DNA from: Glandiceps talaboti
Taxonomy: Eukaryota; Hemichordata; Enteropneusta; Spengelidae
Length of the DNA: 64,000 nucleotides
Assembly: GCF_964340395.1 (NCBI RefSeq)
Contig: NC_135549.1
Coordinates: 20,199,842 to 20,263,841, forward strand
Direction of reading: 5' to 3'
Shown: positions 57,601 to 63,600 of the stretch, in pieces
Numbering within the stretch: the stretch's first letter is position 1
How the letters are laid out: the number at the start of each line of letters is the position of its first letter
Translations under genes and position numbers: made by a program
Notes under the pieces: model-generated
Database searches by the model: none
The model's input: only the letters and a program-made list of their open reading frames with translations
What the model was told of the DNA's origin: nothing

Positions 57601-60600
57601 GTCACTTCCTCTGATGTGTCTTTTACCTTGTTTAATTTTTACACTAGTTATGGATGGCTCGTTACCAAGTTCACTGAAACATGTAATTAGCAATGCAGAG
57701 TACTACGGACCTTCTCTGTTCCTCCTTGGTAAGTTAACATGATTCTCTTTGTGCCTCTTTTCACTTGCATCTCAATTTTGATAGTCTTTTCAACACCTAG
57801 TATAGCTTGTGTTTTGATTTTCATTGAAGAGGGTTCTTTCAATTATAGGTAATGGAATTGGAAGTGTCTTTTATGTATATGATAATTCAATCACTTGTAA
57901 TAGGTCACAATATATAGAACAGCATTGATGGGATCACTATGTATTTTCTCTTAACTATGGTGTTTTTACTACTTTTATAACCCATATTATAGTAAATAAG
58001 ATTTCCAGAATATAATATTTTGCTGTACAACACAGGATGCAGTGATTACAAGTTAATGTGCAAACTGACGTGCTAAGAATTCTTTCTTTTTTTTGTGATT
58101 GATATTGTTATTTTTGATATTGTTTGCAGCATGTGAGTTGGTTACAGTGTATGTGTTTCAAGAACCATCACTGTTGTCACCTCTACAAGACAGTGGTTTA
58201 ACAGATGTCATGTTACATGCCTTACTTATAAAAGATGTAAGTATATACTAATGTAATCTGCTGTTCAGTGTTTTGTCTTGTCTTCAGGTGTCGAGTCTTG
58301 TCTTGTCTTGTCTTGTCTGGTCTTGTCATCTTGTCTTGTCTCGTCTCGTCTCGTCTCGTCTTGTCTTGACTCCTCTTGTCTTGTCTTGTCTTGTCTTGTC
58401 TTGTCTTATCTTGTCTTGTCCTTACTGCATCAACTGCCTCTAACATGGCTGTAAACGTGCATACCCTCAAATAAACAATAACAGAACAACAACTTGAACA
58501 AAAGAGTGTATATAGTAAGTAAGTAAGTAAGCAGTTTTGATTGATAATGACAGAGAGTTCCAAGTAGGGATGGGCCATAGACACTCCAACCACACAAATG
58601 TACATGTATGAATGTAGAAAATCACTTTCGTACAAGCAAATCATGAGTTTTCAGTAGTTTCAAAGTTAATATATACCTTTCAACATACAGTAAATCCACT
58701 AGCAATCATACAGTATTGTGACTACTAGAGTTAATTCCTTTACAGTGAATTCAAGCTTTAATTTGACAGTGACAGCATTGCTTGGTCCCTCAGATATTGC
58801 TACAATCAGTATTTGTGATAAAAGGCAATGCTAAACTAAATTGCAGTAGGTATAGTGTGTAGGTGTTGATTCTTTTCTAACATCCTCACCACATCTTTCT
58901 CTGCAAACATTACATGTATTATCTAAAGTCATATATTCGCTTTATAAATAAACACTCTGCAGTCATCCCTGGAGAGAGAACTGACTGAAGGAACATTTTG
59001 TATACCGAAACCGAAGGCTCAATTACACCAGAGTAATGCTTAGCTAAATTTCAGTTTTTTATTTTTGAAATAGTACATGACAAAATTAACTTTGATTATA
59101 TTATTGTTGAATTGTTGTTATGGTTTTATTCTTTCTATCAGGTTCCAGCCACTAAAGAAGTGTTAGGTTCTCTTCCCAATGTATTCAGCGCACTCTGTTT
59201 GAATGCCCGTGGTCTGCAAGCCTTTGTTAGATGTAAACCGTTTGAAAAATTGTTCAAAGTGTTGCTGTCTCCTGACTATCTACCGGCCATGAGGAGAAGA
59301 AGAAGTTCTGAGCCTGCCGGTAAATATATCTATTGAGCCCATTGTGTACATTTCATGCAATGTTTTTTATTCAGCTATAGAATGTGAGAAGAAGTAACAG
59401 CATTTCATCTTTGAAGGCTTGGTAATCAGAGATTTTGATTGTTTTCAGGTGATACAGCATCAAATCTTGGAAGTGCAATGGATGAACTGATGAGGCACCA
59501 GCCATCATTAAGAACTGATGCGACCAAGGCTATTATTAAGGTGAGATGTAGTGTGGTCTTTGATAAATTATGTCTTCAAATGATTTAAATTTCCTGCAAA
59601 TGAAGTATTTAAAGCTGAGAAAAGTATATGTTATAGCCATAACCATAGCAATGCATCCCCATACACCCATGTACCAGTGACTTAGTAAGTGTTTCAGAAA
59701 CTAACCCCCAAAATTTGTGTCCATACTTTGTGTTTTGGCAGTTGTTGGAAGAGGTATGTGCAATGGGTAGAGATGCCAAGTATGTGTGTAGTAGGAGTTC
59801 TAGCAAACCAGAAACTGCAACCCCTGCAGTAATGAGATCCACTGCTAATGAGAATGAAGTGTCCAGTGAGGATGAAGAAGATGAAGACGACGTGTCCAGT
59901 ACAACTAGTCAGACCAGTACACAGAAAACAGAAACAGAAGCACAGTAAGTTTTGCATCATTTGTATAGAGTAATGTATATACGACACTGGTAATCGAGCC
60001 TTCAGTTTTCTAGGATAGACACAAACTAAATCTATTGGTCTTCAATGTCACAGATGACACAAGTGGGTGATAGTGGTTCCTCTGTTGTGCAGTTCTAATC
60101 ACCCTGTGATGGAGATAGTGTAAACATGGAAGTCTGTAAACAGTACACTGCAAGTTTATGGAATGTTAACTCCCTACTTCAATAGCTTATCACTGTTGTA
60201 TATCAACATGTTGCGACAATAGTTTCAGTTTGTGTTGATCCTAGAAAACCGAAGGCCCAGTTACCAGAGTAATATTATTGTTATGACTCTCTTTTTTATG
60301 ATGATGGTGAATACACATTCTATCATGCACAAGCCAAGTTGAAAAAAAAATGTGGAATTTAAACCCTGGTTGTTTTACGTCATAACAATGCGCATCTATG
60401 TCATGACAACGTTGTCTATGTCACTGGTTCTGCTGTGTTTGAAATATGAATCAAAACATTCAAAATTGCCATTACTTTCCCTGATATTTCTTTGATAATA
60501 CTGGCCCTAGTGCTAGAAAATACTTGTGACCTGGCAAGCTCACGAGATGAGAACGACAGCATTGCTTGGTCCCTCAGATATTGCTACAATCAGTATTTGT

Positions 60601-63600
60601 GATAAAAGGCAATGCTAAACTAAGTTGCAGTAGGTATAGTGTGTAGGTGTTGATTATCTACCGTCATCACCACATCTTACACTGCATACATTACTTCATA
60701 AACAGGGTGTTTTTTTTAATCATTTAGAGGCCAGGTTTTCAACCCAGGTTCTTACATTAATTAGTCTTATCTTGTCAGTGGAGCCATAAGGATTATGTAG
60801 GGTTTTTCTGTTGTTGAGGACCAACTTTTTCCATAAATCTGCAAAACAACCATTCTTCACATCTAAATTTTAATCTTAGTCCAAACTGAGACTTTAATAT
60901 ATATTTAATGTTAGTACAGGATCTTTTCAATCTTATATAGTACATGTACCTGCCTCTACTAAAGTAGTACATGTATTGTATACATGTACATTGTAAACTT
61001 GTAGTGTTACATAAAAATGCAGCATTTTCATCAAAATATGCAAGGGTACAATTGCAACCACAAACTAGTAATAAAGTGATCCCAGAGCAATTTAAACAGT
61101 GCTTCAAATAGAATTTACTGACAGGTACATTTTAACAGACAAAAATATAACTATTATATGGATACATTGAACAATGATTCTGTCTGGTGAAATGTAACAT
61201 TTACATTATTATTTAATAAAACTGTTTTCTATTTTAGAGCATCTGGGTCAGAAACCAGAATACCTATACCACTGTTGGACTATGTGCTAAATGTGGTAAG
61301 TCACTTTTTTTGATGCACTTTACAACACACTAATTGTCTAGTTTAGTGTCTGAAGTGTGACCCAGTTGTACCGTCACCACAGACCTTTCTAATGTTTAGT
61401 GACTCCTAAACTCTGTTTTGGACTTCTCAATATACAGGGAATCAATTTTAGACTAGCATACTGCCATAACAGATTATTTTATCATGCAGTGACACAGTGT
61501 AAACTTTGCACTGTACTTTCAATATGTAGTAAACTAATTTATTACCATCATTGTTTGAAAATAGGCATACCACTAGTTCGTGTGTACACCTTTGCATGTA
61601 ATCATTTGCTTTTTGACATTCTGATTGGCTGATGATTATTCATTATAGAGAACAGCAGCATTGCTTGGTCCCTCAGATATTGCTACAATCAGTATTTGTG
61701 ATAAAAGGCAATGCTAAACTAAGTTGCAGTAGGTATAGTGTGTAGGTGTTGATTCTTTTCTAACATCCTCACCACATCTTACACTGCATACATTATTTAC
61801 TTGAATATATGATAAAAATGATATTTTGTGATGATATATAGTATAATACTGCCATCAATAGACACCATTGATATGGAGATGAAATGAGAAATTACTGGTG
61901 TCAATCACCATTTTAGGTGGATGATCATCCTGTTCACCCTGTTTCCTTGTAAAGATCTTAGCAATCAATGTAATTCACATATTTCTCTTATTGTAGATGA
62001 AATTTGTAGAATCTATCCTGAGCAATAATACCACAGATGATCATTGCAGAGAGTTTGTAGCACAAAAGGGGTTGGTGCCATTAATGGGTATTTTGGGATT
62101 ACCCAATTTACCTGTGGATTTCCCTACTACACCAGCTTGCCAAGCTGTGGCCAGTGTTTGTAAATCTATCCTGGTAAGTATACTCACTTCAGAGTCAGTG
62201 TATTATGTTATATCACAAATATCCCCTAGTACTGTTCTTGTCATTCTTCTACAAATATATTTTCTTTTTTTGTATTTTGTAAGTTTCTCTTTCTATAAGA
62301 ATAGTGTTACATGTACAAGAGGAGAGATGTAGTGCATACCCATCAGAATGGTTTACCTGTTTGTAAGATATGTGAACAGACATTTTGTGATTGGAATTTG
62401 AGTACAAAGATATTGATTACCAGGTATCGCGATGAAACATGGCTCTGGTAATTGAGAGTTCGTTTTACTAAGATAGACACAAACTTAAAACTATTGTTGT
62501 CCAATGTGGTAGATTAATAAGTGGATGATAGTAGTTCCTCTGTTGTGTGAATCTAAACCCTGTGATCAAGATAGTGTAAACATTGGAAGTCCCAAAACAC
62601 TACACTGCAAGTTTATGGAACCAGCTTTCCAGAGATGCCTCCCTACTGAAGCTGCAATGAAATCGACATCCATTCAATAGTGAATCACTGTTGTATCAAC
62701 ACGTTGTGAGAATAATTAAAGTTCGTGTCTATCTTAGTAAACTGAAGCCTCGATTACCAGAGTAATATCTGTACTAGGCAAGGTGGAGTAGTTGTTCATG
62801 TCAGTCATATTAATTTAAAAAAAAACTTTTACTTGTTTTCAGACTTTGGCACATGAACCTCAGGTGTTGAAGCAAGGCTTGCTGCATTTGAATGAAGTTT
62901 TACAATCACTACAGCCTTTACACCAACCAGTGGATTTACCAGGAGGTTCAGTACTTCTCAGAGAGCTGGCTAACTCACCAAGTGTAGTTGAAGCACCTCT
63001 ATCTGCGTCTGCCACTCCACTACTTCATTCAATGGCTGCAGCACATGCATACATTATGATGTTTGTTCATGTGTGTAGGGTAGGATCAGTAAGTGCAAAT
63101 CTTGTCTTGATACTCAATGTTGGTGTCCTAGAGAATATTAGCATATTTAGTGAATGTGTAGATCACCATTTTTTTGAACCCCCGCCCCTCCAAAAAAAGG
63201 TAACATCAATGCTCAGGTATGTATGGGGCCCAAAATTGAAAAAGTGTGTTCGTCAACCATTCACAAGTCTTTCACCACCACTGCTGAAAATTTCTTTTTC
63301 AAACATGATTGCTCATCCACAGTATTCGCCCTTGAAATATATTAGAGTTAAGGAAAATTTACAAATTACAAAATTATCATGTCGGTTTATTCGCTGTACA
63401 GAAGAAATCATGATTGGAACTTAGAATCTGTAGAAGCCTGGAGAGAACCCTCATCCAATGGAAATAGATTCCATGTGACTTGTAAGTTGTAGAAAGTGCT
63501 TGCAGCTGATTTCTAAAAACACTCACCGATGATATGTTTATTTACAGAGTGACATCAGGACAATCTCAATCAATCACTGGGGATCAGACTTGGGACAAAA

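Follow-up and report, generated by a model that had tools for sequence, protein, structure and literature searches.

Three near-identical box H/ACA-like RNA genes in three introns of HUWE1 in the hemichordate Glandiceps talaboti

A unit of 136–139 nucleotides (nt) occurs three times, always on the + strand, within a 64,000-nt stretch of the Glandiceps talaboti genome (NC_135549.1, positions 20,199,842 to 20,263,841; hereafter the window, with position 1 as its first letter). Each copy lies in a different intron of HUWE1 and is sense to that gene, and we consider it very probable that these are paralogous genes for box H/ACA small nucleolar RNAs (snoRNAs), made by duplication within their host. 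The first-pass annotation of this DNA had reported a sequence of about 139 nt present three times on the sense strand of three HUWE1 introns, with an identical first hairpin. That observation is confirmed, at pairwise identities (gaps counted) of 97% for copies 1 and 3, 95% for copies 2 and 3, and 92% for copies 1 and 2. The interpretation offered there, that the copies are H/ACA RNA genes, is supported, and is the best supported of those that we considered.

Differences among the copies are unevenly spread. Alignment columns 1–66 show none at all, as the reported identity of hairpin 1 would have it, and every one of the nine change events (eight substitutions and one 3-nt indel) falls 3' of column 66 (p = 0.003 under an even spread). 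Copy 2 differs from copy 3 by a 3-nt deletion and four substitutions in hairpin 2, and it is because of this deletion that the ungapped identity of copy 2 to copy 1 is only 81%.

When each copy was folded alone, the predicted minimum-energy structure consisted of a hairpin, a single-stranded AAACUA, a second hairpin, ACA and UUA, so that the full H/ACA plan ascribed to all copies by the first-pass annotation (hairpin, AAACTA, hairpin, ACA and three more nt) is borne out by the predicted folds. The fold z-scores were -4.27, -3.49 and -4.23 for copies 1, 2 and 3, and for each whole copy 0 of 200 dinucleotide-preserving shuffles was as stable. Both AAACTA and ACATTA are conserved in all three copies, and the AAACUA of the H box is unpaired with a probability (P) of 0.88–1.0 in copies 1 and 3 and is likewise free when copy 2 is folded. 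The internal loop of hairpin 1, previously likened to a guide pocket, does take that shape in the predicted fold, with seven nt on either side. The CAB box of small Cajal body RNAs has the consensus UGAG and sits in an apical loop; UGAG is absent from all three copies.

The class assignment draws further support from a crude H/ACA descriptor (two closed hairpins, one on each side of ANANNA, with ACA following) applied to both strands of the window. Five matches were returned, among which the three copies ranked first to third at -40.0 to -41.6 kcal/mol, separated by a gap of 12 kcal/mol from the next at -28.0. A looser descriptor over 144 kb (the window plus 80 kb downstream) gave 13 sense and 3 antisense matches with the three copies again on top. 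A descriptor match at coordinate 86182 of this extended sequence drew two Rfam matches, neither of them H/ACA, and another at 99345 appears by eye to be coding sequence. Submitted alone to Rfam cmscan, copy 3 produced nine sub-threshold matches, of which six were to H/ACA families, all six on the sense strand, with a best E of 0.027. These six were TtnuHACA23 (RF02330), snoR135 (RF01431), S. pombe snR10 (RF01437), SNORA8 (RF00393), SNORA35 (RF00566) and SNORA14 (RF00397), and what copy 3 shares with them is the general H/ACA plan. With scores of 12.9–27.1 bits against cut-offs of 36–100 (the best match reaching 27.1 of 100), copy 3 stays far under the cut-offs of all six, and we claim no orthology. 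The leaning of these weak matches toward H/ACA models supports membership of the class, and not orthology to any family.

Judged from its predicted protein, the host gene is HUWE1. The region from 58130 to 64000 contains eight exons with the usual intron borders, the eighth being cut by the end of the window. They join as one open frame, a 141-amino-acid piece of which matches solved HUWE1 chains with an E of 5e-66. All three copy-bearing introns run from GT to AG, and the two short introns between those of copies 1 and 2 are without a copy. From the 3' end of the copy to the end of the intron there are 229, 544 and 201 nt for copies 1, 2 and 3. Coordinates are collected in Table 1.

Table 1. 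The three H/ACA-like copies, their parts, neighbouring HUWE1 exons and a possible fourth gene (window positions unless another sequence is named)
Feature	Position	Strand	Basis or description
Copy 1 of H/ACA-like RNA gene	58774..58912	+	HUWE1 intron 58237-59141
Copy 1 hairpin 1	58774..58832	+	10-bp lower stem, symmetric 7/7-nt internal loop (guide-pocket shape), 9-bp upper stem
Copy 1 hinge / H box AAACTA (ANANNA)	58833..58838	+	unpaired, P 0.97-1.0
Copy 1 hairpin 2	58841..58906	+	lower stem TTGCAG/CTGCAA; biggest internal loop under upper stem 4/3 nt
Copy 1 ACA box, then TTA	58907..58909	+	descriptor, fold
Copy 2 of H/ACA-like RNA gene	60558..60693	+	HUWE1 intron 59945-61237
Copy 2 H box AAACTA	60617..60622	+	descriptor
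Copy 2 ACA box, then TTA	60688..60690	+	descriptor, fold
Copy 3 of H/ACA-like RNA gene	61657..61795	+	HUWE1 intron 61296-61996
Copy 3 H box AAACTA	61716..61721	+	descriptor, unpaired probability
Copy 3 ACA box, then TTA	61790..61792	+	descriptor, fold
HUWE1 exon preceding copy 1	58130..58236	+	open-frame exon joining
HUWE1 exon following copy 1	59142..59319	+	open-frame exon joining
HUWE1 exon preceding copy 2	59742..59944	+	open-frame exon joining
HUWE1 exon between copy 2 and copy 3	61238..61295	+	open-frame exon joining
HUWE1 exon following copy 3	61997..62173	+	open-frame joining and HUWE1 chain match
Possible fourth H/ACA gene	L006:7006-7143 = contig C1 20290847-20290984	sense	descriptor: hairpin, AAAGAA, hairpin, ACAAGA

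Several results weigh against the assignment to the H/ACA class. No Rfam family reached its gathering cut-off anywhere in the window, and a search of a 3.4-kb region returned five matches up to E 10, of which two were H/ACA and concerned copy 1 only (E 0.21 and 1.3). The best Rfam match on copy 3 stops its model within hairpin 2, short of the real ACA. The first two letters of ACA, free in the minimum-energy fold of copy 1, are paired in those of copies 2 and 3, with P unpaired of 0.38 and 0.33 in copy 3. Hairpin 2 is without a clear pocket: its internal loops measure 4/3 nt in copy 1 and 2/2 nt in copy 3, and copy 2 shows single-sided bulges. A pocket-to-box distance of 15–16 nt is given for eukaryotes in the excerpted text of PMC7991803; hairpin 1 has 17 nt in the minimum-energy fold, or 15 when a C16-G44 pair next to a U-U mismatch is allowed, and hairpin 2 has 12 nt in copies 1 and 3. 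The changes in hairpin 2 preserve its folding energy just slightly better than random mutations do (fractions 0.13–0.30), and therefore do not amount to a proof of covariation. Finally, comparison with shuffled controls, after allowing for the number of tests, yielded no convincing target among stand-in ribosomal RNAs (rRNAs) and small nuclear RNAs (snRNAs), the species' own U2 and a presumed 28S piece of about 930 nt.

It could be that one copy only is a working H/ACA gene and the others are decaying duplicates. The confinement of the changes to the 3' half, the partly paired ACA of copies 2 and 3, and hairpin 2 energies scarcely better kept than under random change are all in line with such decay; however, both boxes and the entire hairpin 1 are unaltered in three of three copies, and all three are more stable than 200 of 200 shuffles. 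We judge this explanation unlikely, though it deserves to be kept in mind.

The borders of the unit bear on how the copies spread. Homology ends 1–9 nt upstream and 0–3 nt downstream of the predicted RNA ends, extending furthest between copies 2 and 3, and beyond the unit the introns do not align, except for an unrelated mobile-looking element. Such an ending nearly at the predicted mature ends, closest on the 3' side, is what copying by way of an RNA intermediate (retroposition) inside the host, in place of DNA duplication, might leave behind, but an old DNA duplication followed by decay of the flanks would look identical. Direct repeats flanking the copies, which could mark target-site duplications, do not exceed chance, the flanks viewed have no A-rich tail, and all copies are local and sense, which is not expected of random retroposition. 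Retroposition is, in our estimation, improbable. Some other structured RNA, for example a microRNA precursor formed by hairpin 1 or an intronic splicing element, with a coincidental H/ACA plan, would agree with hairpin 1 alone being most conserved and hairpin 2 lacking a clear pocket, and two microRNA families do occur among the nine weak matches of copy 3. Those two matches have E-values of 1.8 and 8.3, however, and the two-hairpin plan with both boxes is present three times at descriptor scores unapproached elsewhere in the window, making this alternative very improbable.

The number of copies in the genome speaks to the possibility of a repeat family. A DNA search of the 590-Mb assembly found the three HUWE1 copies and no others, and a 34-nt hairpin 1 pattern allowing up to three mismatches recovered the same three only, although strongly diverged copies might escape such searches. 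The same genome search applied to the mobile-looking neighbour element gave 2593 first-look candidates (40 of which were scored), and therefore does detect repeats. A covariance model built from the three copies detected no additional one in the window, where two antisense matches overlapped copies 1 and 2, or in the 80 kb downstream (best E 2.7), and viral_contigs contained no exact match to a 27-nt pattern from hairpin 1. Many copies outside host introns, named in the first-pass annotation as the sign of a transposon-like repeat, are not seen at DNA-search similarity in the 590 Mb, and with genome-wide counts of 3 against 2593 candidates for the adjoining repeat, we reject that identity. A mobile repeat, such as a short interspersed element or a miniature inverted-repeat transposable element (MITE), that resembles an H/ACA RNA and happens to occupy three HUWE1 introns is thus scarcely credible: these introns do hold a mobile-looking inverted-repeat element (59979-60275, 62443-62768) and the copy borders are sharp, yet only three copies were found even at three mismatches in the 34-nt core, they lie within about 3 kb on the same strand of one host gene, and direct repeats around them are not above chance.

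Taking the copies to be H/ACA snoRNA genes, we can postulate how they might function. Each RNA would be spliced out with its intron and then trimmed to ends guarded by the H/ACA core proteins, which are dyskerin/Cbf5, Nop10, Nhp2 and Gar1. H/ACA guide RNAs normally direct chemical change in rRNA. As a guide, it would base-pair with a target RNA, the internal loop of hairpin 1 being the likeliest site of pairing, whereupon dyskerin would turn a uridine of the target into pseudouridine. The copies probably arose by duplication inside HUWE1, with selection keeping the RNA, and hairpin 1 most strongly, while the flanks drifted. Everything from transcription and processing to dyskerin binding and pseudouridylation is inferred here, as are any target and the way in which the copies multiplied. 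It is possible that the identical hairpin 1 serves dose, and also possible that the changed 3' side of hairpin 2, in copy 1 compared to copies 2 and 3, serves a new target.

Candidate targets came from stand-in eukaryotic rRNAs (16 contigs filed under bacterial genomes), stand-in snRNAs, the species' own U2 and about 930 nt of presumed own 28S, and were scored with approximate stacking energies. The guide-target energy test set comprised 36 tests; the full 16-contig scan was made with one setting, and the others on 2 or 4 contigs. Against human U2, 0 of 100 shuffles was as good as the nine-nt guide strands of hairpin 1, and 1500 shuffles gave p = 0.011 with the target shuffled and 0.007 with the guide shuffled; guides of 6–7 nt gave 0.38–0.55. 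On the species' own U2 the values were p = 0.13 and 0.53, and we reject U2 as a target of hairpin 1. Three other pairings among the 36 tests gave low values: hairpin 2 with stand-in U6 (matched by 4 of 100 shuffles for copy 1, and likewise for copy 3), copy 1 hairpin 2 with part of one 28S (1 of 20) and hairpin 1 with stand-in U1 (9 of 100).

Two rRNA sites for hairpin 2 of copy 1 were also considered. The first is a conserved 28S stretch, GGGAG-U-A-ACUAUGAC, which is present in three stand-in 28S sequences and with which pairing is possible; a first scoring on one contig put it ahead of all 60 guide shuffles at one register setting out of 21. By energy score 5 of 10 and 4 of 10 shuffles were as good and the pocket-to-box distance is 12 nt, and the site was rejected. 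The second gave the best single energy (setting 81/122, stand-in contig L042), beating 40 of 40 nulls and, on rescanning, 39 or 40 of 40. It is the best site in 0 of the 15 other contigs, its pocket-to-box distance is again 12 nt, and we do not claim it as a target. As to the species' own rRNA, neither a DNA search nor a pattern search located an 18S motif in the assembly, and 20 small contigs showed no rRNA motif within their first 10 kb. A 28S motif was located on contig C27, where the stretch consists of 1401 N, about 930 nt that look 28S-like by eye and then a satellite-like repeat; the 28S-like piece offered no guide pairing above chance.

A possible fourth H/ACA gene lies about 29 kb further down, by eye in another HUWE1 intron. 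All three of its Rfam matches are H/ACA, the best being a full-length match to SNORA54 with an E of 0.00027 (for 151 bases) and 29.1 bits against a cut-off of 60, an E-value that is not decisive because the candidate was picked from 88 kb. It is single copy in a DNA search of the genome and, by eye, adjoins degenerate tandem repeats. The whole candidate folds with a z of -2.60, and hairpin 2 alone with a z of -1.63, 14 of 200 shuffles being as good; the pocket of its hairpin 1 has no target above chance among those scanned. This candidate fits with HUWE1 hosting more than one H/ACA RNA. One could go on to imagine HUWE1 as a multi-gene H/ACA host in this lineage, comprising the triplet and the SNORA54-like candidate, in which an invariant 5' guide provides dose, the 3' hairpin drifts toward a second and possibly non-ribosomal target, and supply is tied to HUWE1 splicing, but this is a speculative and quite improbable extension.

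Clusters of paralogous snoRNAs in the introns of one host are already a described pattern. The excerpted text of PMC2653536 reports snoRNA paralogs that arose by intragenic duplication and occupy different introns of one host in chicken and other vertebrates, and the HUWE1 copies resemble these in their placement, kept structure and local duplication. They differ in that the host is HUWE1, and in that about 90% of chicken H/ACA snoRNAs are singletons according to the same excerpt (PMC2653536). The introns of Drosophila mfl/Nop60b, as described in part of PMC1821038, hold one H/ACA snoRNA, four isoforms of one C/D snoRNA and two copies of another small RNA, and are thus similar in having several near-identical small RNAs, one per intron, in a single protein gene. 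However, mfl/Nop60b multiplies a C/D RNA and the HUWE1 triplet an H/ACA-like RNA, and mfl/Nop60b encodes the pseudouridine synthase itself, whereas HUWE1 is a ubiquitin ligase. Among the papers listed in literature searches combining HUWE1, or its fly homologue, with snoRNAs, none treats HUWE1 as hosting a snoRNA; in the excerpt of PMC6775235 it is named as a predicted microRNA target. If real, the triplet would represent an H/ACA family not yet listed and, so far as these searches go, a host gene not reported before. The established view of how H/ACA RNAs work is unchanged by it. A triplet in which one hairpin is invariant and the other drifts would provide a compact case for how duplicated guide RNAs split or keep their targets.

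Some further features of these sequences may be mentioned. The inverted-repeat, MITE-like element lies in the copy 2 intron and in the one that follows the copy 3 intron, with a fragment near 59008-59037, and the copy 1 intron contains a pentanucleotide array of GTCTT units at 58289-58420. Fifteen of the 22 listed U2 snRNA matches cluster on contig C14 (18344357-18418745), many of them about 1.2 kb apart, and the species' own U2 from contig C12 reads AUCAUGUG where human U2 reads AUCAAGUG. The satellite-like array that follows the 28S-like fragment on contig C27 has, by eye, GGTTTTGACC-type units (L050:2330-4801), and the first 10 kb of the small contig L013 consist of an array that looks similar. 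Elsewhere in the window, two gene copies that by eye are amidase-like (FAAH-type) have highly similar exons, at 12568-15843 and 27255-30348.

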